Assembly (NCBI GenBank): GCA_016789455.1
Contig: JAEUQU010000002.1
Location: forward strand, 806,001-870,000
Length of the DNA: 64,000 nucleotides
Direction: 5' to 3'
Source of the DNA: Candidatus Saccharibacteria bacterium
GTDB lineage: Bacteria > Patescibacteriota > Saccharimonadia > Saccharimonadales > Saccharimonadaceae
In this document: one piece after another, positions 7,152-50,385 of the stretch
How the letters are laid out: each line of letters starts with the position of its first letter
How positions within the stretch are numbered: the stretch's first letter is position 1
The notes under the pieces: model-generated
Told to the model about the DNA's origin: nothing
Databases searched by the model: none
The model's input: only the letters and a program-made list of their open reading frames with translations
Made by a program: the position numbers and the translations under genes

Positions 7152-7288
7152 CGCCACGCCTAAATACCCACGCAGTGTGGGGGCACTTTTTAAAGAGACT
7201 TCCACTGGAAGTCTCTTTAAGCGTTAGGCTGAAATCGGTATAGACCGATTTCACATACCCCACACTGCGTGGGTATTTAGGCGTGGCG
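7152..7288. repeat. Cloverleaf-like inverted repeat (31-bp arms, two inner hairpins)
   Basis: The arms 7152-7182 and 7258-7288 are perfectly complementary over 31 bp. Between them lie two more perfect hairpins: AAAGAGACTTCC/GGAAGTCTCTTT with a 3-nt loop, and TGAAATCGGT/ACCGATTTCA with a 4-nt loop. Together they form a three-way junction in RNA or a cruciform in DNA. The element fills the whole gap between the convergent pilin-like and tsf genes and may act as a bidirectional terminator. Confidence 0.85.
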
Positions 7289-8841: not shown

Positions 8842-8870
8842 TTGCTTTTTAGTGCAAATTGTGATATACT
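8842..8870 (+). promoter_or_regulatory. Promoter of the TerD-like gene series
   Basis: TTGCTT (8842-8847), 17 bp, TATACT (8865-8870), with TGTGA just before the -10. The same TTGCTT-17-TGTGATATAAT layout recurs before the 13491 gene, so this promoter type is shared by the gene family. Confidence 0.65.
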
Positions 8871-8916
8871 ATAAGGATACACTCTCGACTGTGTAGAGGC
8901 CGCACCTTGTCAGCTT

Positions 8917-8946
8917 GTTATCTCATGTCAGTTCAACGACGAACTG
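8917..8946 (+). promoter_or_regulatory. Leader element of gene 8985: 5' pairing arm plus hairpin
   Basis: 8917-8931 (GTTATCTCATGTCAG) is complementary at 14 of 15 positions to 9703-9717 downstream of the gene. It overlaps a local hairpin CAGTTC/GAACTG (8929-8934, 8941-8946) with loop AACGAC, which recurs before three sibling genes. Confidence 0.75.
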
Positions 8947-8984
8947 GCACCATCACCGTGACCCACTACCCCCGAGGAGTTGCC

Positions 8985-9617
8985 ATGCACCGCCCCGATT
9001 CCCACCCCACGCCGCCCGTGACCACCGAACAGGCCTGGGCACCGACCGGCGACACCGGACGGCTGACCATCACCGCTCTCGATGGCAGGCCGGCCGAGTG
9101 CCTGCTGCGCTTCACACTGCCCCAGAACGGACGGCCGTTCGCCGCGCCGGGACTGCCCGGACCGCGCCTGACCATGGTGCGGTTCGACAAGGGCCAGCAG
9201 CGGGTGGCGTTCATGAGCACCGGACGCACCAGTCCGGTCGCCGTCGACTGGCTCGGGTACTCGGCCGACGGCCGGACGCTGGAGCTGCGCCTGCAGGGCA
9301 ACGTCCTCGACCACCTGCTGGTCGTCCTGGACGGGGACATCTGCGACAACCTGTTGTCCGCCGAGATCCTGCAGCACCCCGGCGACGAGCAGCCCCGGCA
9401 GCTGTTCGTCCCCATCCAGCCCGGCTACGCGGCCATACTGTCCGTGCTCAGCCCCGATGAAGACGGGCGGACGCTGAGTGTCTGCCCGGTCTTCGACCGC
9501 GCGCACGACACCCTGGCGGCAGCCCTGCTGGCCTGCGGCTGGGACCTCTACTCCCCCGACCCCGATGGGGACGAGCAAGAAGAGGAAGCAGAAGACTGGC
9601 TGCCCGTGCGGCCCTGA
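8985..9617 (+). CDS. Diverged TerD-like protein, copy 1
   Basis: 210-aa soluble protein. It shares a layout with the next two genes: a beta-rich N-terminal half, a D/S-ADGRTLELRL segment at about residue 95, a hydrophobic strand (LLVVLDGD), a strand pair resembling the TerD V-R-x-x-x-G-x-E block, and a C-terminal helix ending in CGWDLYSP. The resemblance to TerD folds is inferred from motif order, not from strong identity. The tail is acidic (DGDEQEEEAED). Start fixed by GAGGAG 5 nt upstream of the ATG. Likely part of the expanded Ter system in 8.8-20.6 kb. Composition is GC-rich compared with rpsB-tsf next door. Confidence 0.8.
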   Translation: MHRPDSHPTPPVTTEQAWAPTGDTGRLTITALDGRPAECLLRFTLPQNGRPFAAPGLPGPRLTMVRFDKGQQRVAFMSTGRTSPVAVDWLGYSADGRTLELRLQGNVLDHLLVVLDGDICDNLLSAEILQHPGDEQPRQLFVPIQPGYAAILSVLSPDEDGRTLSVCPVFDRAHDTLAAALLACGWDLYSPDPDGDEQEEEAEDWLPVRP

Positions 9618-9632
9618 GGTCCGGCGATGGCA

Positions 9633-9669
9633 GCTGCACCCCGGCATCATGATGGTGCCGGGGTGCAGC
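9633..9669 (+). terminator. 3' hairpin of gene 8985
   Basis: Perfect 13-bp stem GCTGCACCCCGGC/GCCGGGGTGCAGC with an 11-nt loop and no U-run. It may stabilise the 3' end or pause polymerase instead of ending transcription, because the 3' pairing arm lies beyond it. Confidence 0.6.
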
Positions 9670-9702
9670 ACCCCGCCCCTGCGTTCTGACAAAGACCGTG
9701 AC

Positions 9703-9717
9703 CTGACATGAGACAAC
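9703..9717 (+). promoter_or_regulatory. 3' pairing arm of gene 8985
   Basis: CTGACATGAGACAAC, the partner of the leader arm at 8917-8931 (14 of 15 complementary). See the corresponding finding. Confidence 0.7.
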
Positions 9718-9752
9718 AAGCTGCAGTCGGCACAGTATTGTTCTTTGACACC

Positions 9753-9786
9753 TTTATGCATCCGTGCCAGCTCACTGACGAGCTGG
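9753..9786 (+). promoter_or_regulatory. Leader element of gene 9831: pairing arm plus hairpin
   Basis: 9754-9770 (TTATGCATCCGTGCCAG) is complementary at 16 of 17 positions to 10491-10507. The overlapping hairpin is CCAGCTC/GAGCTGG with loop ACTGAC; compared with its siblings it has a compensatory T-A to C-G change in the stem. Confidence 0.8.
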
Positions 9787-9830
9787 CCGGTATCACTACA
9801 CTGCTACACCCGACCCCGAGGAGGGCCCGC

Positions 9831-10424
9831 ATGTCCCGCTACATTGCCAACAGCACCACCCTGCCGTTGCAGGATCCTGACGGTACGCCGGTGTCATCGC
9901 AGCTCAGCTTCACCCTGCTGAGCACCGACGGCACCACCCTGCCCCAGCTGATCGTCGCCTACAAGGCGCCCCGCACCGACGGTGAACCGAAGCGGCGGGG
10001 CGGCCCGGAAATGGTCATGGGCCACCAGGCCGGCCACCGCCCCGGCTGGCTCGACTTCTCGGACGACGGCCGCCAGCTGCGCCTGAGCCCGGGGTCCGGG
10101 GACGTCACCGGCCTGCTGGTGATGGCGCTGGTCTACGCGGGCAACAGCGGCCTGCTGGAGGTCCGGCTCACCACCGGCAGCCAGGAGGTGGCGCAGCCCT
10201 ACGAGCTGCAGCTCCTGGACGGCACCCGTGCCGTACTGGTGGCTGCCGCGCTCCCCGACCAGGCACTCCACGTGGCGACGCTCAACGCGCCGCGCCGGCC
10301 CGGCCTGGGCATGGCCATGGCCGACGCGGGCTGGGAGATGCCAGAGTCGGAGTCGTGGCAGGCGCGGCCTGCTCCCGGCACCGGCGGCGACTGGAGCGGC
10401 ATGCTCCATCCCCGCCAGCTCTGA
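9831..10424 (+). CDS. Diverged TerD-like protein, copy 2
   Basis: 197-aa soluble protein and the copy most like canonical TerD: strand LSFTLLSTDG, then WLDFSDDGRQLRLS, a DVTGLLVMALVYAG strand, and VRLTTGSQEVAQPYEL, which parallels the TerD block VRVxDxxTGxEIARYxL. It ends in a helix with MADAGWEMPES, the family tail. TerD proteins bind calcium and form stress-response complexes with TerC and VWA partners (family knowledge); the Asp ligands of classic TerD are not obviously kept here. GAGGAGG lies 6 nt before the ATG. Confidence 0.8.
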   Translation: MSRYIANSTTLPLQDPDGTPVSSQLSFTLLSTDGTTLPQLIVAYKAPRTDGEPKRRGGPEMVMGHQAGHRPGWLDFSDDGRQLRLSPGSGDVTGLLVMALVYAGNSGLLEVRLTTGSQEVAQPYELQLLDGTRAVLVAAALPDQALHVATLNAPRRPGLGMAMADAGWEMPESESWQARPAPGTGGDWSGMLHPRQL

Positions 10425-10443
10425 GCCACAGTGACACCGGCTT

Positions 10444-10476
10444 CACCCCGGCCGCGCCACCAGGCCGGCCGGGGTG
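10444..10476 (+). terminator. 3' hairpin of gene 9831
   Basis: CACCCCGGCC/GGCCGGGGTG, 10-bp stem, no U-run. Same position relative to the stop codon as the hairpins of the sibling genes. Confidence 0.55.
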
Positions 10477-10490
10477 GATCCGCCCCTGAT

Positions 10491-10541
10491 CTGACACGGA
10501 TGCATAACTTATTCATCCATGCCAGTTCAACGACGAACTGG
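10491..10541 (+). promoter_or_regulatory. 3' arm of gene 9831 abutting 5' arm and hairpin of gene 10584
   Basis: 10491-10507 pairs with 9754-9770. Immediately after it, 10509-10525 (TTATTCATCCATGCCAG) pairs with 11376-11392 beyond the next gene, and CCAGTTC/GAACTGG (10522-10528, 10535-10541) forms the family hairpin. The two adjacent arms can also fold on each other (GGATGCATA with TATTCATCC, one mismatch), giving an alternative local hairpin. Confidence 0.8.
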
Positions 10542-10583
10542 TTGGTATCACCCCCTGCCCACTCGCACACTCGAGGAGTAACT

Positions 10584-11294
10584 ATGCTATTCACGTTCGG
10601 CCCTGACAAGCAGTCCACCGTGCTGCAGCTCGACGGACCGGAGCGCATCCGGCCACAGGTGCCCCGCACCACGCTCAGCCTGACGGGATCCCTGGCGTCG
10701 GAAGAGCGGCCGGTCTTCATCATCGCCCACCGGGGCTACGACGAGCTCAACCGCGACCGGCCCGCCCACGTTCAGCCCCGCTGCCGGACACACATCGCAA
10801 TGAGCCACCCGTCCACCGCACTGCCCGATTGGGCGGTGCTGGACAACGACGGTCTGCAGCTGACGCTGACGCTCAACCCCGGACAGGTCGGCGCCCTGCT
10901 GGTACTCGTCCAGACCACGCAGTCACACCTCTGGCTCGACATGGAGACCGTGCTCAACGGTCGCGACATAGAGCGCCAGCGGATCCAGCTCCACGACGGC
11001 TACCGGCCCGTGCTATATGCACTGGCCAACCTCAGTCGGAGCTGCTGGCTGCACGTGGGCTACCTGAACAGTCCCGTCCGGACACAGCTGGCAGAAGCCA
11101 TGCAGGACTGGGGCTGGGAGCGGCCCGGGCTACAGGCCCACGCCGACCCGTCCCAGCCCGACCCCGAGCTGGTCGCCCGGTTCAGTGAACAGCTGCCCGG
11201 TCTGGTCGCAGAACTGCGCGAGCGGGGCCTGCTGGCTCCTACCCCGCTGACACTGGTCACCTCGGACACCGAGCACGACCTCCACCCGGAGTGA
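10584..11294 (+). CDS. Diverged TerD-like protein, copy 3
   Basis: 236-aa soluble protein, paralog of the two preceding genes. Shared landmarks are DNDGLQLTLTLNPG, LLVLVQTT, a strand pair, and the C-terminal AMQDWGWERPG. A further about 40-residue helical, Glu/Leu-rich tail distinguishes it. GAGGAG lies 5 nt before the ATG. The TerD relation is inferred from order of motifs. No separate promoter was seen, so it is probably co-transcribed from 8842. Confidence 0.78.
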   Translation: MLFTFGPDKQSTVLQLDGPERIRPQVPRTTLSLTGSLASEERPVFIIAHRGYDELNRDRPAHVQPRCRTHIAMSHPSTALPDWAVLDNDGLQLTLTLNPGQVGALLVLVQTTQSHLWLDMETVLNGRDIERQRIQLHDGYRPVLYALANLSRSCWLHVGYLNSPVRTQLAEAMQDWGWERPGLQAHADPSQPDPELVARFSEQLPGLVAELRERGLLAPTPLTLVTSDTEHDLHPE

Positions 11295-11301
11295 TACCGG
11301 C

Positions 11302-11392
11302 ATCGCCCCGGCCGCCACACAGGCCGGCCGGGGCGATGACCCACTCCCCCGCGCCACCGTGGCGCTGACTTTGACCTGACATGGATGAATAA
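11302..11392 (+). promoter_or_regulatory. 3' hairpin and pairing arm of gene 10584
   Basis: ATCGCCCCGGCC/GGCCGGGGCGAT (11302-11313, 11326-11337) is a perfect 12-bp hairpin. Downstream, 11376-11392 (CTGACATGGATGAATAA) is complementary at 16 of 17 positions to the gene's own leader arm at 10509-10525. Confidence 0.75.
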
Positions 11393-11407
11393 CTGATGGA
11401 AACGAAA

Positions 11408-11456
11408 AACCCCAGCCGGCGGTACTCATGCTGAGATTTTCCGCGCCGCTGGGGCT
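11408..11456 (-). terminator. Rho-independent terminator of the 12461-11455 operon
   Basis: On the minus strand AGCCCCAGCGGCG pairs with CGCCGGCTGGGGT (one bulge) and is followed by TTTTTCG. A classic terminator with U-run, unlike most of the plus-strand genes around it. Confidence 0.75.
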
Positions 11457-11973
11457 ATGAAAGAAGGTCCGGCCGCAGCCGTGGCGTGTAGTTGGCCAGC
11501 AGGCGACGGGCCAAACGGCTGATGGCCCGCCGCTGGCTGGCCGTACAGTGGCAGACCACCCGGTGCCGCACGCCGTAGCCGGGCCACCACATACGGTAGT
11601 GGCGCGTCTGGTCGGACTGGCCGCGCGCAGCCTGGACGAGCTGCTTCACCCGGGCGGACCGGCCGAACGGCAGGCGGACCTGGATGATGAGCTTGACGGT
11701 GTCGTCGTCGTCCTCGTCCTCGTCGTCATCGACCAGGCAGAGGTCGTCGGCAGCGGTATTGGAACTGTCGTACTCCGGATGGCCGGACTCGTCGTGACGG
11801 CCGGTGGTGTCCGTGCCGCTGTCGCGGGAGCCCGAGGCGCTCTCGCTGCCGTCGTTGTCGCTGCTCCAGCTCCGCTCGCGGCGGTTGCTGTCGTCAGCAC
11901 GGCTTGGACTGGTGTCCGAGCCGCCCGAACCGCCAAAAATGCCGGCCACCAGATCGAACAGGTCGTCGATCAT
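11455..11973 (-). CDS. Hypothetical acidic/basic bipartite protein
   Basis: 172 aa, not recognised. A short hydrophobic start (MIDDLFDLVAGIFGG) leads to a long Ser/Asp/Gly-rich, strongly acidic, probably disordered region with an Asp run (DDDEDEDDDD), then a basic C-terminal domain of about 80 residues with Cys/His (VVCHCTASQRR) and many Arg. The start at 11973 lies 5 nt after the stop of the preceding gene, implying coupling. Could bind nucleic acid through the basic part (inference only). Confidence 0.65.
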   Translation of the reverse strand: MIDDLFDLVAGIFGGSGGSDTSPSRADDSNRRERSWSSDNDGSESASGSRDSGTDTTGRHDESGHPEYDSSNTAADDLCLVDDDEDEDDDDTVKLIIQVRLPFGRSARVKQLVQAARGQSDQTRHYRMWWPGYGVRHRVVCHCTASQRRAISRLARRLLANYTPRLRPDLLS

Positions 11974-11978
11974 CGGTC

Positions 11979-12461
11979 TTAGATTCCCTTCTGCTGCTCG
12001 CGCGGGCGCGAGGCGATCCAAGCGATGATGTACAGCGTGGCCGCACTGGCCACCCCGCCCATCAGGACAGTGAGCAGCGCCGGCAGCCACTGGGTACCCT
12101 GCACGATGCGCAGCCCCAGGATGCAGGCCGAGGCGCTGAGCAGGATGAGTGCCAACACCGACGTCCGCACCACGTGCGGCACCTCGACGCCGAGATGGCC
12201 GATGCCCTCCTCGCGCGTTAAGGCGAGTTCATCCGCTTTGTTGACGCGCCGGTGGCGGACTTCACCAGCCACCGCAGCCACCAGCAGCACCGCAACGATG
12301 AGCTGCAGTACGGCCAGGATGACGTAGTTGTTGGCCAGGCCGTTGGGCGGCAGGCCGTCGACATCGTTGCAGGCGGCAATCATGCCGCCGGACAGCAGGC
12401 CGAGCAGCCAGATCGGCATTGGCACACCGAAGGCACGGCGCAGGCGCGATGAGCGCGTCAT
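11979..12461 (-). CDS. Hypothetical four-helix membrane protein
   Basis: 160 aa, not recognised. Four predicted membrane helices in two pairs: about residues 15-33, 45-70, 95-115 and 125-150, with a basic N-terminus (TRSSRLRR). Start chosen at 12461 because AAGGAG lies 5 nt upstream; the longer frame has no SD. First gene of a two-gene operon. The paired-helix layout recalls the membrane-protein family at 46.4-50.2 kb but sequence similarity is not evident. Confidence 0.72.
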   Translation of the reverse strand: MTRSSRLRRAFGVPMPIWLLGLLSGGMIAACNDVDGLPPNGLANNYVILAVLQLIVAVLLVAAVAGEVRHRRVNKADELALTREEGIGHLGVEVPHVVRTSVLALILLSASACILGLRIVQGTQWLPALLTVLMGGVASAATLYIIAWIASRPREQQKGI

Positions 12462-12469
12462 GTCACTCC

Positions 12470-12566
12470 TTACTAGGACGGCCGGGCAATGGTGCCCGGC
12501 GTTGGATGATGGCAGTGGCACTGCCGGACGCAATTTAGAATAGCGTATCTATACGGATATTGACAA
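12470..12566 (-). promoter_or_regulatory. Promoter and double-hairpin leader of the 12461 operon
   Basis: Minus-strand TTGTCA (12561-12566) and TATTCT (12537-12542), 18-bp spacer. The leader folds into two perfect hairpins, GGCAGT/ACTGCC with a 3-nt loop and GCCGGGCA/TGCCCGGC with a 4-nt loop, before the SD. Confidence 0.6.
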
Positions 12567-12588
12567 TACTTTTACTTCATTTTATATT
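12560..12588 (+). promoter_or_regulatory. Promoter of gene 12647
   Basis: Consensus TTGACA (12560-12565), 17 bp, TATATT (12583-12588). It overlaps the -35 region of the divergent minus-strand operon, so the two promoters probably compete. Confidence 0.7.
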
Positions 12589-12646
12589 ATTACCGTTCCT
12601 TCCCCCCGCCCGCTATTTCGGGCATGAGCGAAAGAGAGCATCCGCG

Positions 12647-13291
12647 ATGCACCCCCACATGGAGCAGCCCGTGCCCCGTCAGCGCTTCTGGCGCCGGCGC
12701 CCCTGGCCCACCGCCGGCGCGGCGCTGGTGCTGGCGTACCTGTTGTCGTGCGGCCTGGTGTACCTGCTGGGGCCCAGCGGTGACACCGTCCAGTACGGTG
12801 CGCGGGACTACGCAGCCGTCTTCGGCATCGTCGATGGCCAGTCGTACCCGTCCGCATCCACTGGTGAAGCCGGGCCGAGCGCCCGGCCCATCCACCTCGA
12901 CCCGCACGCCGGAAACGACTACGGCGACGGGCAGAACTGGGCGCTGACCATCGAGTACACCGAGCGCGGCCGGGCCCACCTGATCACCCTGGACTACACC
13001 ACGCAGGTGCGGGTGATCCACACCGCGCCGGGCGAGCAGCCCAGCGTCACCTTCCGCCTGCACCAGAGCCTGCCCGCCTACTCGGGGTACGACGGCCCGC
13101 ATCGCGTCCAGCCCGGCAACTTCTGGCTGTGGCAGTCGGGAGCTGTCGTGGCTCCGCCGGACATCACCCGCTCGAGCATGTGGCGGGACACGGTGTCCCG
13201 AGGCGGCCCGGGCGAACTCATGCCCAAGCTGGTGGACGTCGCCGAGGTGCGCGTGCCGGCCGGCACGCTGGACAGCCTCATCCGGGCCTGA
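12647..13291 (+). CDS. Hypothetical membrane-anchored extracytoplasmic protein
   Basis: 214 aa, not recognised. A basic N-terminus (QRFWRRRPWP) is followed by one hydrophobic helix (about residues 20-42) and a soluble domain of about 165 residues, rich in beta-type segments, presumably outside the cell. No Cys and no lipobox. Start at 12647 chosen because the longer frame begins inside the promoter. The SD is weak (AAAGAGAG). Confidence 0.72.
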   Translation: MHPHMEQPVPRQRFWRRRPWPTAGAALVLAYLLSCGLVYLLGPSGDTVQYGARDYAAVFGIVDGQSYPSASTGEAGPSARPIHLDPHAGNDYGDGQNWALTIEYTERGRAHLITLDYTTQVRVIHTAPGEQPSVTFRLHQSLPAYSGYDGPHRVQPGNFWLWQSGAVVAPPDITRSSMWRDTVSRGGPGELMPKLVDVAEVRVPAGTLDSLIRA

Positions 13292-13305
13292 GCGGCCCAT
13301 CCGCG

Positions 13306-13341
13306 GCGGTCAGCATTCCTCTCTCGAGGAGTGCTGACCGC
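13306..13341 (+). terminator. 3' hairpin of gene 12647
   Basis: GCGGTCAGCATTCCT/AGGAGTGCTGACCGC, 15 bp with one G-U, loop CTCTCG, followed by an AT-rich stretch that is already the next promoter. Confidence 0.65.
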
Positions 13342-13346
13342 CACTA

Positions 13347-13375
13347 TTGCTTTTTTAAGGTATTTGTGATATAAT
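13347..13375 (+). promoter_or_regulatory. Promoter of gene 13491
   Basis: TTGCTT (13347-13352), 17 bp, TATAAT (13370-13375), preceded by TTTGTGA. Same type as the promoter at 8842. Confidence 0.7.
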
Positions 13376-13414
13376 TATATGATACACTGTGTGGCCCTTT
13401 CCCAACCATTACCT

Positions 13415-13447
13415 TTATTGACTCATGCCAGTTCACTGACGAACTGG
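13415..13447 (+). promoter_or_regulatory. Leader element of gene 13491: pairing arm plus hairpin
   Basis: 13415-13431 (TTATTGACTCATGCCAG) is complementary at 15 of 17 positions to 14066-14082. The hairpin CCAGTTC/GAACTGG (13428-13434, 13441-13447) has loop ACTGAC. Confidence 0.75.
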
Positions 13448-13490
13448 CCGGCACATCGCGTACCACACGGTACCTGTCCAAGGAGCACCT

Positions 13491-14003
13491 ATGAGTAAGC
13501 CCCGCATCCTGACCATCCGCGAGACCGGTACCAACCCGGAGTTCGGCGACCCCCGCGCGGACCCGGCGCGGGCCATCCACGACGTCGACCTGCTCTGCGC
13601 CTTCGTCCTGCCCGGTGGCGACACTGGCATGACGGCAGGCCGTCCGCAGGACAGCGACCCCGCCTGGCTGTTCTACCACGAGGGTGACGACTACGTCGTT
13701 GCCGAGGGCGAAGCGGTACGGAGCGGCCGCCAGGTGATCTCCATCACCTCGGGCATGACCATCGACCTCGACCGCTGCGACGCCACCCGCCTCATCCTGC
13801 TCATCGCGTCCAACGCCACCGGCGGACAGATCACCATGGTGATGGAGGGCTTCTCCGACTCCATCGACATCCGTCAGGGCGTCATCGTCCTCGGTGAAGT
13901 CATCGGCGGTGAACGGTTCGAGCGCCGTCCGCAGCAGATGCACTTCACCGACCTGCAGGCGGCCCTGGAGGCCTACGGCTTCACGGTGCAGAACCCCACG
14001 TAG
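13491..14003 (+). CDS. Diverged TerD-like protein, copy 4
   Basis: 170-aa soluble acidic protein. Motif order matches TerD: DVDLLCAFVLPGG (TerD DLDxSAFLL), WLFYHEGDD (TerD FIFYNN), then IDLDRCDATRLILLIAS (TerD xDLxxVPADVxKIVFxV). It ends in LEAYGFTVQ, the counterpart of the GW tail in the other copies. The Asp-rich calcium loop is only partly kept. AAGGAG lies 6 nt before the ATG. The relation to TerD is inference from these aligned blocks. Confidence 0.8.
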   Translation: MSKPRILTIRETGTNPEFGDPRADPARAIHDVDLLCAFVLPGGDTGMTAGRPQDSDPAWLFYHEGDDYVVAEGEAVRSGRQVISITSGMTIDLDRCDATRLILLIASNATGGQITMVMEGFSDSIDIRQGVIVLGEVIGGERFERRPQQMHFTDLQAALEAYGFTVQNPT

Positions 14004-14018
14004 CGCGACGTGCCGGTC

Positions 14019-14082
14019 CTGGCCCCCTCCTCTATTCGTTTCTGGGAGGGGGCCAGGATTGTGCACTGACATGAATCAATAA
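14019..14082 (+). promoter_or_regulatory. 3' hairpin and pairing arm of gene 13491
   Basis: CTGGCCCCCTCC/GGAGGGGGCCAG (14019-14030, 14045-14056) is a perfect 12-bp hairpin. It is followed by the arm CTGACATGAATCAATAA (14066-14082), complementary to the gene's own leader. Confidence 0.75.
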
Positions 14083-14087
14083 TAATA

Positions 14088-14116
14088 TTGCTTTTTTGTA
14101 CATTTGGTTGTAGAGT
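14088..14116 (+). promoter_or_regulatory. Promoter of gene 14137
   Basis: TTGCTT (14088-14093), 17 bp, TAGAGT (14111-14116). It starts 6 nt after the 3' pairing arm of the previous gene. Confidence 0.5.
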
Positions 14117-14136
14117 AGCTGTTTAGGAAAACTGAG

Positions 14137-46650: not shown

Positions 46651-46667
46651 CGCACCTTCCAAAATGA

Positions 46668-46681
46668 GACAGGAGGCATGC
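46668..46681 (+). promoter_or_regulatory. SD region of gene 46682, complementary to its 3' UTR
   Basis: GACAGGAGGCATGC pairs with GCGTGCCTCCTGTC at 47149-47162: 14 contiguous pairs with one G-U. Confidence 0.8.
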
Positions 46682-47125
46682 ATGCACTCCCCCGGCTCCA
46701 CCCCCTTTCCCGCCCGGCCGGTTATCAGCCGCCGGGCCGGCTGGTGGCTCGGCGGACTGCTGATCGTGGCGGGTCTGGGCTATCTGTATGCCGGCACCGT
46801 GCCCGGCGCGATGGCCCTGGTCTGCCTGGGGTTGCTTTCGGCGGTGTGCGTCTCACGGCCCGCCGACATCAACCATCAGCCGGACGAACCCGACGCACCG
46901 CCATCCAGCACCGAACTCTCGGCGCCACACAGCCCGACTTCCCACATCGTGGCCTACATCATCGGCTGCGCGGTACTGCTGCTGCTTGGCATGGGCACGC
47001 TGCTGGGCGGTGCGCTGATACTGTCGGGCGTGCCCGGCGTCGACCAGAGTGCCATCGGCGGAGCGGCCGTCATCCTCATCGCCATCACCAGCATGGCCGT
47101 GGCTATCCGCAGCCTGATCCGCTGA
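46682..47125 (+). CDS. Small membrane protein, array family member B
   Basis: 147 aa with four predicted helices in two pairs separated by a polar loop (HQPDEPDAPPSSTELS). The C-terminal helix and tail (ILIAITSMAVAIRSLIR) match the end of the four downstream proteins. It lacks the N-terminal HDPxxCxxC motif. Start ATG at 46682, 5 nt after AGGAGG; another ATG at 46678 is out of frame and overlaps the SD spacer. Confidence 0.75.
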   Translation: MHSPGSTPFPARPVISRRAGWWLGGLLIVAGLGYLYAGTVPGAMALVCLGLLSAVCVSRPADINHQPDEPDAPPSSTELSAPHSPTSHIVAYIIGCAVLLLLGMGTLLGGALILSGVPGVDQSAIGGAAVILIAITSMAVAIRSLIR

Positions 47126-47128
47126 AGC

Positions 47129-47171
47129 GGTCGCGCGGACGGGCGGCCGCGTGCCTCCTGTCCGCGTGACC
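47129..47171 (+). terminator. 3' hairpin of gene 46682 with anti-SD loop
   Basis: GGTCGCGCGGAC/GTCCGCGTGACC stem (one G-U); the loop carries the segment complementary to the gene's own SD. Confidence 0.75.
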
Positions 47172-47180
47172 GTCTATATA

Positions 47181-47209
47181 TTGACAATGGCCGCATCTTT
47201 TTATGTAAT
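47181..47209 (+). promoter_or_regulatory. Promoter of gene 47272
   Basis: TTGACA (47181-47186), 17 bp, TGTAAT (47204-47209). The leader begins with hairpin AGAAGTG/CACTTCT (47219-47225, 47242-47248), shared in form with the next three genes. Confidence 0.7.
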
Positions 47210-47271
47210 ACAGCTTATAGAAGTGTGCAGGGACCTCCTCCCACTTCTGCACATCGAGACAGGGAGACCTT

Positions 47272-47856
47272 TTGTCCACCGCGAGTGACATGCCATCCGC
47301 CAGCCACAACCATCAGTGCGGCACGCCCGACTGCGCCACCTGCATCATCGCGGGTATCAAGGGCCTGCCGCCGGCCCGCGTCGACCGGCGCTCCAGGCCC
47401 GACCGGCATATCCGGCGGGCACTGGCGCGCCACAGCCGGCCCGGGCGGCCAAAGCGGTCCAAGCATACGGAGCGCCTTGGCTTCACCACCATGTTGGTCG
47501 TCCTGCTGGGTTTGGGCGGCCTGACCCTGCTGGGTCTTGGTGAGTACGTCTACGGCGGGCTGTGCCTGGCCGCACTGGCCGTCCGGGCCATGGAACAGTG
47601 CCTGCGGCCGGATGAAGCGTACCCGCCCACCGCCGAACAGCCGCCGTGGTCCAACAGCTTCGTCGCCAATCCGGCCAGCCGGCTGGAGCTGGCGGCCATC
47701 GTCATCGTGATCCTGGCGGCCTGCGCCCTGGCGCTGGTGGGCACGGCCGCACTGCAGATCGACAGCCCGATTGCCCTGATGCCGGGACATGGCATGGCCA
47801 TGATCGGCACCGCCGTCTTCATCATCTGGCGCTGCGCCAGGATGCTGCGGCGATAG
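47272..47856 (+). CDS. Membrane protein with N-terminal Cys/His motif, member C
   Basis: 194 aa with TTG start. Cytoplasmic N-terminus with HNHQCGTPDCATCII (Cys-x4-Cys-x2-Cys with nearby His), a basic Arg/Lys-rich linker, then four membrane helices in two pairs and a tail AVFIIWRCARMLRR. The motif could bind zinc or iron (inference). AGGGAG lies 5 nt before the TTG; no in-frame ATG is as well placed. Not recognised as a known family. Confidence 0.75.
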   Translation: MSTASDMPSASHNHQCGTPDCATCIIAGIKGLPPARVDRRSRPDRHIRRALARHSRPGRPKRSKHTERLGFTTMLVVLLGLGGLTLLGLGEYVYGGLCLAALAVRAMEQCLRPDEAYPPTAEQPPWSNSFVANPASRLELAAIVIVILAACALALVGTAALQIDSPIALMPGHGMAMIGTAVFIIWRCARMLRR

Positions 47857-47862
47857 CAGTGG

Positions 47863-47933
47863 CGCGTGCGGCCGGGATTCCCTGTCTCACGCGGCCAGAC
47901 CGCTTGATCGGATGATCGAGCTGCCTGGCCGCG
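47863..47933 (+). terminator. 3' structure of gene 47272
   Basis: CGCGTG/CACGCG hairpin (47863-47868, 47888-47893) whose loop holds TCCCTGTCTC (47879-47888), complementary to GAGACAGGGA at 47256-47265. Then GCGGCCAG pairs with CTGGCCGC (47925-47932). Confidence 0.75.
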
Positions 47934-47979
47934 TGGCGCTTCGCATGGGCGCCTTCAATGCCTGCTTATGCTTATTTTA

Positions 47980-48008
47980 TTGACAAAATAACATTTTTTT
48001 GATATAAT
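47980..48008 (+). promoter_or_regulatory. Promoter of gene 48080
   Basis: Fully consensus: TTGACA (47980-47985), 17 bp, TATAAT (48003-48008). Leader hairpin GAAGTG/CACTTC (48018-48023, 48046-48051) with inner GTGGGC/GCCCAC. Confidence 0.8.
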
Positions 48009-48079
48009 ATATTCACTGAAGTGTGTCTGTGGGCAGCCCGCCCACCACTTCCGTTCCTGAGACAGAGGAGCCACGCACT

Positions 48080-48565
48080 ATGCCGGTCACCGGCCAGCAC
48101 TACCCCGCCAGCCCCGCTGGCGAGCCTTCCCACGACCCCCGGGAGCTGATCGATCACATGCCGACCGAATCACGTGCCTACGGGCTGCCCTTCGTGGGCG
48201 CCTGCGTCAGCTTGACCGTCGGCATCGTCCTGCTGGTCATCGGCCAGACGTTCTACGCCCTGCTGATGACGACGCCGTTCGCCGCCTTCCTGTACGCGGG
48301 GCTCTGGACCCCCACGGGACAGCGGCGCACCGCCAATCACAGCAGTGAACAGATCGAGCCGGCACCGCCGACGTCGCCGATGCGGCGCACCATGCTCTTC
48401 GGGGCGTTCGGCCTGAGCGGTGTCTTCATGACGGGATCGGCGGTGTTCTGCCTGGCCTTCCTGAGCGTCGGACAGCCCGTCACTCTGGACTGGCCGCAGA
48501 GCGTCCTGCTGTGCCTCGCCGGCCTGTACCACATCTGGCGCGCCGTCCGACTGATGGCGCGCTGA
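48080..48565 (+). CDS. Membrane protein, member D (degenerate Cys motif)
   Basis: 161 aa. N-terminal SHDPRELIDHM sits where the sibling proteins have GHDPxxCxxC(I/L); the two Cys are replaced by Leu and His. Four membrane helices in two pairs follow, separated by a polar linker, and a tail LYHIWRAVRLMAR. GAGGAG 9 nt before the ATG at 48080. Confidence 0.76.
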   Translation: MPVTGQHYPASPAGEPSHDPRELIDHMPTESRAYGLPFVGACVSLTVGIVLLVIGQTFYALLMTTPFAAFLYAGLWTPTGQRRTANHSSEQIEPAPPTSPMRRTMLFGAFGLSGVFMTGSAVFCLAFLSVGQPVTLDWPQSVLLCLAGLYHIWRAVRLMAR

Positions 48566-48570
48566 GGTGG

Positions 48571-48645
48571 CGCGTGCGGCCGGGGGTCATGGCCCTCTGT
48601 CTCACGCGACCTGTGTCTTCAACGTGTTTGAAGGTGCGGGTCGCG
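48571..48645 (+). terminator. 3' structure of gene 48080
   Basis: CGCGTG/CACGCG hairpin with GGCCCTCTGTCTC in the loop (48591-48603), complementary to GAGACAGAGG(A)GCC at 48059-48072 (13 pairs, one bulged A). CGCGACC (48605-48611) then pairs with GGTCGCG (48639-48645). Confidence 0.78.
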
Positions 48646-48684
48646 TATTGCAGCTTTTTACAAACTGATTCTTCTCACGCTTAT

Positions 48685-48713
48685 TTGACAAAATAAGATA
48701 TTTTTGCTATAAT
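48685..48713 (+). promoter_or_regulatory. Promoter of gene 48780
   Basis: TTGACA (48685-48690), 17 bp, TATAAT (48708-48713). Leader hairpin GGAGTG/CACTTC with inner CGGG/CCCG. Confidence 0.8.
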
Positions 48714-48779
48714 ATAAGTATAGGAGTGTGTCAGCGGGACCAACCCGCCACTTCTGCAATTTGAGACAGAGGAGCCACT

Positions 48780-49367
48780 GTGCCTTCCATGACTGGACGC
48801 TGCCCCGGCGGCCACGATGACGAGCCGGGCCACGACCCCAACACCTGCGCCGACTGCATTCTGGGCAGCATGAACCCCGAGACGCCCATCGAACCGAGCC
48901 CGGCCATCAAGCGGCCGGTCCGGCCGGCGGATGACCAGACGACACCGGGCGTTCACGAGCGGACCCCCGCCCCGGCGGAGGACGTGCGCACCGGGCGCAG
49001 CGTCGGCCGCGTCATGCTGGGGTACGTCTCCTGGGCACCCTTCGCCATCCTGCTCGCCTTGGGCGAATGGATGTATGCGACCGTGGTCATCGTCGTCGGC
49101 ATCACCGTGCTGATCGACGGCCTGGACATCGGGCAGGCGCCGCTCGCGGGCCACCCCCGCAGTGAACGGCGGCCTGGCGCGCTACTCATCCGGACGGTGC
49201 CATGCGTGCTGCTCCTGTGCTGTGCCGGTGGCATGCTCTGGTTCGGCGCGGGCTACCTGACGGTGGGCTACAACCCGCTGGACCTGACCCCGGCCCAGGG
49301 CCTCACGCTGCTGATCAGCGGCGCCTTCGTGGCCATCCGCTGCGGCACACTGCTCGCCCGCAAGTGA
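48780..49367 (+). CDS. Membrane protein with HDPxxCxxC motif, member E
   Basis: 195 aa with GTG start. N-terminal RCPGGHDDEPGHDPNTCADC motif (three Cys, several His), Pro-rich linker, then four membrane helices in two pairs and a tail AIRCGTLLARK. GAGGAG lies 6 nt before the GTG. The motif is likely a metal site (inference). Confidence 0.77.
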   Translation: MPSMTGRCPGGHDDEPGHDPNTCADCILGSMNPETPIEPSPAIKRPVRPADDQTTPGVHERTPAPAEDVRTGRSVGRVMLGYVSWAPFAILLALGEWMYATVVIVVGITVLIDGLDIGQAPLAGHPRSERRPGALLIRTVPCVLLLCCAGGMLWFGAGYLTVGYNPLDLTPAQGLTLLISGAFVAIRCGTLLARK

Positions 49368-49373
49368 CGCACT

Positions 49374-49462
49374 CGCGTGCGACGGGGGCGGCCAGCCCTC
49401 TGTCTCACGCGACCTATGGTTTCAAATATGGCAAGTGCCGCCATTTGAAATCATGGGTCGCG
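49374..49462 (+). terminator. 3' structure of gene 48780
   Basis: CGCGTG/CACGCG hairpin with GCCCTCTGTCTC (49395-49406) in the loop, complementary to GAGACAGAGG(A)GC at 48763-48775. CGCGACC (49408-49414) pairs with GGTCGCG (49456-49462), enclosing ATTTGAAA/TTTCAAAT. Confidence 0.78.
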
Positions 49463-49496
49463 ATACAACTTATTAGTTTGAACGACTTGACTTTTA

Positions 49497-49525
49497 TTGA
49501 CAAAAATTTATTTTGTTATCAAGAT
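49497..49525 (+). promoter_or_regulatory. Promoter of gene 49593
   Basis: TTGACA (49497-49502), 17 bp, weak CAAGAT (49520-49525). Leader hairpin AGAAGTG/CACTTCT (49534-49540, 49561-49567) with inner CGGG/CCCG. Confidence 0.6.
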
Positions 49526-49592
49526 GATGCCATAGAAGTGTGCCTACGGGAAGTTCCCGCCACTTCTTGAGTATTCGAGACAGAGGAGCGCC

Positions 49593-50204
49593 ATGACCAG
49601 TACCGGTGATTTTGACATTCCCGAGAACCACGAGAGCCTGCCCGGCCATGACCCCGCTGAGTGTATCTGGTGCCTGATGAGGCAGGCCGGCCCTGCGCCG
49701 CAACCAGGAGGCAGTCCGGCCGGTCCGGGCCTGCGCCCGCCCGGCCGCCAACACGATGAGACCAGGCTGTTGCCCGGCAGCTTGGCGGGTCCCCGGACCC
49801 TGATAGGCAGGACCCGCATCGGGATGGGCGCGGTGGCCATAGTGGTCGCCATCGCCGTGTTCTTCGATGGGCAGGCGGGCTACAGCATCGCCTTACTGCT
49901 GTTCGGCATTACCTTCATCACCGATGGGTCACGCGTAGGGCTAGCCCCCTTCAACCGGACCCGTCGCCGCAATGAACGGGCAGCCAAGCACACCGATTGG
50001 CGCACGCTGTCACGGCGCCGGGAAGTGATACGGGGCATCATCTGCCTGGCGATCTTCGTCATGGCAGTGGGCGCCGGCGTGGCTGGCGGCATCATCTTTG
50101 CCGGTGACGATCAGCCGCCATTCCCCGCCGCCTCCGGTGCGGCCATGGTGGTCAGCGCCCTGGTGTCGCTCTATCGCCTCTCCGTCATCCTGTTCAAGGA
50201 CTAG
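49593..50204 (+). CDS. Membrane protein with HDPxxCxxC motif, member F
   Basis: 203 aa. N-terminal LPGHDPAECIWCLMRQ motif, a Gly/Pro-rich linker, two membrane helices, a basic loop (RTRRRNERAAKH), two more helices and a tail VSLYRLSVILFKD. GAGGAG 5 nt before the ATG. Last gene of the tandem array. Confidence 0.77.
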   Translation: MTSTGDFDIPENHESLPGHDPAECIWCLMRQAGPAPQPGGSPAGPGLRPPGRQHDETRLLPGSLAGPRTLIGRTRIGMGAVAIVVAIAVFFDGQAGYSIALLLFGITFITDGSRVGLAPFNRTRRRNERAAKHTDWRTLSRRREVIRGIICLAIFVMAVGAGVAGGIIFAGDDQPPFPAASGAAMVVSALVSLYRLSVILFKD

Positions 50205-50207
50205 GCG

Positions 50208-50285
50208 GGTCGCGCGCGGCAGGGGCGGCGCCCTCTGTCTCACGCGACCGAAGCATTGAATATTTCATTAAATGTTTCGGTCGCG
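50208..50285 (+). terminator. 3' structure of gene 49593
   Basis: GGTCGCG (50208-50214) and a downstream GGTCGCG (50279-50285) can each pair with CGCGACC (50243-50249). The loop of the first hairpin holds GGCGCCCTCTGTCTC (50227-50241), complementary to GAGACAGAGG(A)GCGCC at 49577-49592 (15 pairs, one bulged A). Confidence 0.8.
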
Positions 50286-50385
50286 TTTATTGCTAGTATT
50301 TCGCGAACATTTCATTACCCGTTCAGTTTGACCGGCCCGTGATGCCGTTCCGAACATTTAATGAAATAGAAATAAGGCCACGCTC

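Follow-up and report, generated by a model that had tools for sequence, protein, structure and literature searches.

Why should each of several neighbouring orphan genes be bracketed by an inverted pair of sequences that belongs to it alone? The question is raised by a 64,000-nt stretch of a Candidatus Saccharibacteria genome of 1.44 Mb and 58% GC, whose relatives by rpsB belong to the same group (contig JAEUQU010000002.1, positions 806,001 to 870,000; hereafter, the window). Four of its genes, starting at window positions 8985, 9831, 10584 and 13491 (region 8.9-14.1 kb), possess complementary arms of 17-25 nt that are private to each gene, one in the leader and the other beyond a hairpin after the gene. 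A preliminary description had placed an inverted pair around each of them, and had proposed either gene-specific pairing of the 5' and 3' ends of an mRNA or the terminal repeats of single-gene cassettes; all four pairs are where it put them. We consider, with a probability of roughly 0.78, that the arms represent 5'-3' pairing of mRNA, a reading supported by covariation and predicted folds, by the excess of own-gene pairs across the genome and its recurrence in a second species, and by a syntenic orthologue with arms that changed together.

The four units are built to one plan: 5' arm, local hairpin, Shine-Dalgarno sequence, gene, strong hairpin without a T-run, 3' arm (coordinates here and below are those of the window, plus strand). 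The first unit comprises the 5' arm CAGCTTGTTATCTCATGTCAGTTCA (8911-8935), a local leader hairpin TCAGTTC..GAACTGG that is conserved in all four leaders (8928-8947), gene 1 (8985-9617; an orphan protein of 210 aa, of no family), a strong hairpin after the stop codon, without a T-run (9633-9669), and the 3' arm (9699-9723). Its pair had been given as 14 matches in 15; it is present but longer, 25 nt with 23 matches, the longest of the four, and the 17-mer in register with the other three genes, TTGTTATCTCATGTCAG / CTGACATGAGACAACAA, matches at 16 of 17 positions. The unit of gene 2 (9831-10424; an orphan protein of 197 aa, 37% identical to that of gene 3 over 119 aa) has arms matching at 19 of 21 positions (9754-9774 / 10487-10507), a leader hairpin at 9767-9786 and a hairpin after the stop codon at 10438-10482. 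That of gene 3 (10584-11294; 236 aa, orphan) has arms matching at about 19 of 22 positions (10509-10530 / 11371-11392), with the corresponding hairpins at 10522-10541 and 11301-11338. In the unit of gene 4 (13491-14003; 170 aa, orphan) the arms lie at 13415-13436 and 14061-14082, their core matching at 15 of 17 positions (13415-13431 / 14066-14082), and the hairpins at 13428-13447 and 14017-14058. All four 5' arms are situated some 50-77 nt upstream of the start codon, run into the local hairpin and leave the Shine-Dalgarno sequence uncovered. The 3' arm of gene 9831 abuts the 5' arm of gene 10584 (10487-10530); these two are partly complementary (duplex -16.9 kcal/mol), a possible competing hairpin between neighbouring units.

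Ungapped scores for the arms (match +1, mismatch -2) of 19, 15, 16 and 13, in gene order, exceed the best obtained from 2000 dinucleotide shuffles of each 3' flank (13, 11, 13 and 12). No other gene's 3' flank in the genome equals the own-arm score, with the exception of gene 10584, whose leader ties between its own flank and that of adjacent gene 9831, within which the gene 10584 leader physically lies. In the 4x4 matrix of RNA duplexes the diagonal is best for every gene (-37.0, -27.7, -27.1 and -20.9 kcal/mol), and 92.6% of the cells of the aligned 17-nt arms pair. Of the 17 aligned base pairs, 7 are altered in both members and no pair in just one, a covariation score reached by 0 of 500 shuffles. 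Leader and 3' flank are thus complementary beyond chance and linked by compensatory changes of natural origin, two of the properties looked for in intramolecular pairing of 5' and 3' untranslated regions (UTRs). The predicted folds of all four units bring the arms together across the gene, with mean arm pair probabilities of 0.53-0.88 (at least 0.85 in nearly all others). Could the units be copies of one ancestral unit, their arms matched by descent, or the matches simply chance? Two of the four proteins are homologous and the leaders have a motif in common. Descent alone, however, does not produce matched double changes, the scores are out of reach of shuffles and of other genes, and the excess described below is seen in unrelated genes and in a second genome; we accord this explanation practically no weight. 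Matches to the leader motif CAGYTCANYGACGARCTGG in 100 relatives are single-mismatch matches only, at chance level, and viral contigs have none to its longer form; Rfam gives nothing at its gathering score and three chance microRNA matches below it.

The constant C-A mismatch remarked upon earlier in three of the genes is real. It marks the junction of the long helix with the local hairpin CCAGYTC..GARCTGG, and in the predicted folds of those three genes the C is paired within this hairpin instead of across the gene. On the plus strand, scans detected no promoter-like site in the two intervals separating genes 8985, 9831 and 10584, nor a terminator-like site before 13305. These three genes may therefore be on a common transcript, though the promoters presumed for genes 8985 and 13491 likewise escape the scan. 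Nor did the terminator scan find a terminator-like site between the stop codon and the 3' arm in any of the four. A promoter-like block, TTGCTTTTT, recurs at 8842-8883, 13347-13388 and 14088-14117, and in two cases TGTGATATAMT follows it (direct repeats); a block resembling it is present near 10880-10920 of sequence L041.

The significance of such pairs can be gauged by asking how often genes in general carry them. A simple codon model yielded 1469 genes, with approximate calls and starts. The 100 nt preceding each gene were compared with the reverse complement of the 150 nt following it, and the best match was scored; the same upstream sequence set against the 3' flanks of other genes provided the expected count. 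Pairings with neighbouring genes were dropped from this control because adjacent flanks have hairpins in common, which inflates the counts. Own-gene pairs are in clear excess: 30 versus 9.2 expected at scores of at least 11, 17 versus 2.7 at 12 or above, 11 versus 0.84 at 13 or above and 8 versus 0.20 at 15 or above. Two of the 11 genes scoring at least 13 are artefacts, arising from a repeat element (C2:123485) and a promoter palindrome (C2:191488), and one is doubtful (C2:241626, as is C3:122687 in the same-genus genome described below); the four window genes are among the other eight. Clean cases beyond the window are C2:350512, 930370 and 1278595 (15/15 each) and C2:1054848, an NlpC/P60 gene (Pfam E 2e-24); weaker ones are C2:30216, 214750, 313227, 771066 and 771420. 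Brackets spanning two adjacent genes show no excess, and the unit is therefore one cistron. Several 3' arms lie within or immediately before terminator-like hairpins. Accessibility of the arms in local folds shows a weak trend at the 5' side and none at the 3' side. Structured RNA was rejected as the source of the other brackets: Rfam finds just two tRNAs in those stretches. Three related orphan genes, C2:28555, C2:30216 and C10:12430 of the same-genus genome, have a CAAGCA-type 5' arm and matching 3' arms with differing flanking letters, while paralogues near such genes, C2:26427 and C2:29266, are without a clear pair.

The excess recurs in this same-genus genome, G001, of which 714 kb were read: 6 own pairs score at least 13, versus 0.38 expected. 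At the same threshold there is no excess in the rpsB neighbourhoods of 79 other Saccharibacteria (1338 genes; 1 versus 1.3) or in 250 kb of E. coli K-12 (0 versus 0.36). The arms are thus not universal, the comparison outside the genus covering core-gene regions and E. coli.

The second genome also makes it possible to distinguish RNA pairing, in which arms should persist with covarying letters at fixed loci, from single-gene mobile cassettes, of which the arms would be the terminal repeats. Such persistence is found, though elsewhere than at the four genes. In G001 an orthologue of the NlpC/P60 gene (protein about 50% identical) is flanked by the same neighbours (80-93% identical), and in both species arms of 19-21 nt occupy an aligned leader position with changed letters: CTCATGCACTAACTCAATCTT with AAGATCGAGTTAGTGCAAGAG, and AGCACTAGCGTCAACTCTC with GAGAGTACACGCTAGTGCT. 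Cognate duplexes reach -40.2 and -44.5 kcal/mol, versus -18.0 and -29.5 for swapped ones. Two more distant homologues with readable flanks have no such arms. Homology also links C2:930370 to C3:70880 of G001 (E about 4e-6); both carry perfect arms of 15-16 nt, whose sequences are unrelated. Inverted pairs around single genes in an array of fast-evolving orphans do bring cassettes to mind, and a genuine repeat element with private palindromes adjoins the array at 7152-7288; yet the arms differ and covary among the copies instead of forming a shared terminal repeat, flanking direct repeats are not apparent by eye, and unrelated genes without common ends give the same excess. Because the syntenic NlpC/P60 arms have been kept with changed letters, RNA pairing at fixed loci is favoured over cassettes, which we regard as highly improbable, if less strictly so for the four genes themselves. 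At the corresponding rpsB neighbourhood, the same-genus genome has other genes in place of the four, an arrangement that does not amount to a clean empty site; one membrane gene there has a 5'-3' match of 9 nt, noticed by eye, which is within chance and was not used.

The repeat element at 7152-7288 (C2:813221) is one of eight copies in the source genome of a ~95-nt sequence with two hairpins around GCGTTAGGCTGAAATC, the others being at C2:123156, 123403, 365364, 490201, 554889, 576416 and 577507. Each copy appears looped inside a private inverted repeat, which in the window copy is 31 nt and perfect, and the hairpin stems vary with compensation. None was found in the 714 kb of G001.

The scan of all genes revealed a second array in the window (46.7-50.3 kb), of different sequence but the same logic. 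Each of its five orphan genes, several of which have hydrophobic stretches, carries a GAGACAGnGGAG-like sequence at the Shine-Dalgarno site and the complement after the stop codon, mostly within a local hairpin; the variants GAGACAGAGG, GAGACAGGGA and GACAGGAGGCA each have their own complement opposite. In gene a the 5' arm GACAGGAGGCA lies over the Shine-Dalgarno sequence (46668-46678; 3' arm 47152-47162); gene b has GAGACAGGGA (47256-47265; 47879-47888), genes c and d both TGAGACAGAGG (48058-48068; 48594-48604, and 48762-48772; 49397-49407), and gene e GAGACAGAGG (49577-49586; 50232-50241). A further copy is at C2:790990, outside the window. With three G001 genes included (GACAAAGG, GACAGGAG, GACAGAGC), all 8 pairs of the family are kept and 4 are doubly changed. 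The 5' arm overlaps the Shine-Dalgarno sequence throughout this array, and also in C5:72680, C12:6917 and C3:75424 of G001. Besides these arms, the five leaders of the array (46660-50290) have hairpins GAAGTG..CACTTC, and in its 3' hairpins the CACGCGACC strand has two possible partners, one upstream and the other the terminator-like stem that follows.

That genes c, d and e of this array have their arms in common bears on a further possibility: that pairing occurs in trans, a small RNA from the 3' end using the 3' arm as its seed to repress or protect its own mRNA and those of close paralogues. One such RNA could reach all three genes, and 3' arms before or inside terminator-like hairpins have the anatomy of 3'UTR-derived small RNAs. 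In the four genes, on the other hand, the private arms would restrict each RNA to its own mRNA, and no processing site or small RNA is known. We consider pairing in trans unlikely.

Several observations weigh against pairing of the two ends of one message. The arms of the second array, at 10-11 nt, are within the range of chance matches, their support coming from covariation in the family and not from score; the members of that alignment were chosen after the match had been seen; and for gene 46682 the mean probability of long-range pairing is as low as 0.47. The four genes are without orthologues for comparison (tested for gene 13491, in 151 genomes), and no such arms are present at the genuine ter genes of relatives (the ter-like cluster by rpsB in G014). 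Furthermore, the helices of 28 high-scoring genes comprise 385 Watson-Crick pairs, no G-U pair and 6 A-C mismatches, and selection on the sense RNA is therefore not favoured, though 3 of the 6 mismatches are accounted for by the local hairpin. This last result is what would be offered in support of arms that work as DNA, as the ends of an invertible segment or as paired sites of a DNA-looping protein. A single protein would require a common site, however, and the arms have private centres; the 5' arms are leader sequences, in some genes covering the Shine-Dalgarno site, and the 3' arms lie past the stop codon, often in terminator-like hairpins; and no invertase was seen nearby, although none was searched for. 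We judge a role at the DNA level very unlikely.

The products of the four genes had been described as TerD-like, a label that found no support: there is no Pfam, NCBIfam or PADLOC match, and the profile of the TerD family (PF02342) is not matched; hhalign profile-profile comparison with genuine TerD proteins of relatives gives a probability of 0.2%; and a single-sequence AlphaFold2 fold is unusable (pLDDT 36) and lends TerD no support. One weak PHROG match, of unknown function, was obtained. The protein of gene 13491, the only one of the four compared with PDB sequences, has no match there, and no homologue of it was found in about 150 relatives' genomes, phages and viral contigs. Genuine TerD genes do adjoin rpsB in two relatives, at L140 2000-10500 (G014), in what reads as a canonical ter cluster, and at L138 14690-15274 (G001).

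How might paired mRNA ends operate? The arms would be two halves of a gene-private helix in one mRNA, linking the 5' leader to the 3'UTR and closing each cistron into a loop. Its formation in cis within the sense mRNA is inferred, as is its effect on translation or decay. In genes 8985, 9831, 10584 and 13491, where it lies off the Shine-Dalgarno sequence, it probably shields the leader and the 3' end from ribonucleases, or serves as a processing site; a gene for RNase III is present in the genome. In the second array and its relatives, where the 5' arm covers the Shine-Dalgarno sequence, a complete transcript would keep its ribosome site masked for as long as the 3' arm is in place and paired. 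These particular effects, masking and shielding, are put forward tentatively. Private letters would keep neighbouring cistrons of one transcript from cross-pairing, and make sense if those cistrons do have one transcript; genes c, d and e of the second array, which judged by eye appear to have promoters of their own, have one arm sequence in common.

The 16S and 23S rRNAs are bracketed by processing stems, which likewise give every unit of a transcript a long enclosing helix of its own; in the present case a protein-coding cistron is enclosed, and cleavage is putative. Among mRNAs, the nearest match for the four genes is hbs of Bacillus subtilis, in which a 14-nt interaction between the 5' and 3' UTRs protects from RNase Y (reviewed in PMC7821165). 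Its leader-3'UTR helix is of comparable length, but it concerns a single gene, whereas here several neighbouring cistrons each have a pair with letters of its own. In icaR mRNA of Staphylococcus aureus the 3'UTR sequence UCCCCUG pairs with the message's own Shine-Dalgarno sequence and RNase III cleaves (PMC3868564); the pairing motif is absent in S. epidermidis, and the icaR and hbs pairings are reported not to be conserved in close relatives (PMC7821165). The second array resembles icaR in the complementarity of a 3'UTR segment to the message's own ribosome site. The difference is that icaR is one gene with a short motif, while here many genes are involved, with 8-25 nt, conservation with covariation at one locus, and putative repression. 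The hok and aapA type I toxin mRNAs have a 5'-3' long-distance interaction and are activated by 3' trimming (PMC6733600, PMC3868564); there too the full-length mRNA is closed by its two ends with the Shine-Dalgarno sequence masked, and aapA exists in several chromosomal copies. Those mRNAs, however, encode toxins and have an antisense RNA; here the proteins are of 59-346 aa, those of the four genes (170-236 aa) are not short toxin peptides, and no antisense RNA is known. With icaR (PMC3868564) and aapA (PMC6733600) as models, a 5' arm over the Shine-Dalgarno sequence would leave the message silent until opened or trimmed; with hbs (PMC7821165) as model, an arm lying upstream makes protection or timing of decay likelier.

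Bacterial 5'-3' UTR pairing has so far come from a handful of single genes, and here it would recur across unrelated ones; we found no genome-wide case in the open-licence literature, which is weak evidence of novelty. The comparison of a gene's own 5' flank with its own 3' flank, set against other genes, is a simple genome-only test that can be used on any genome. It is conceivable, at somewhat less than even odds, that the lineage has a layer of regulation of its own: private pairing codes in dozens of unrelated and fast-evolving genes, each cistron forming its own loop even beside others of one transcript, and letters drifting while the two arms stay complementary. If confirmed, mRNA-end pairing would regularly accompany one class of proteins in this lineage, orphans that are often located in the membrane or secreted, and closure of each cistron would be a testable way of regulating genes within one transcript.

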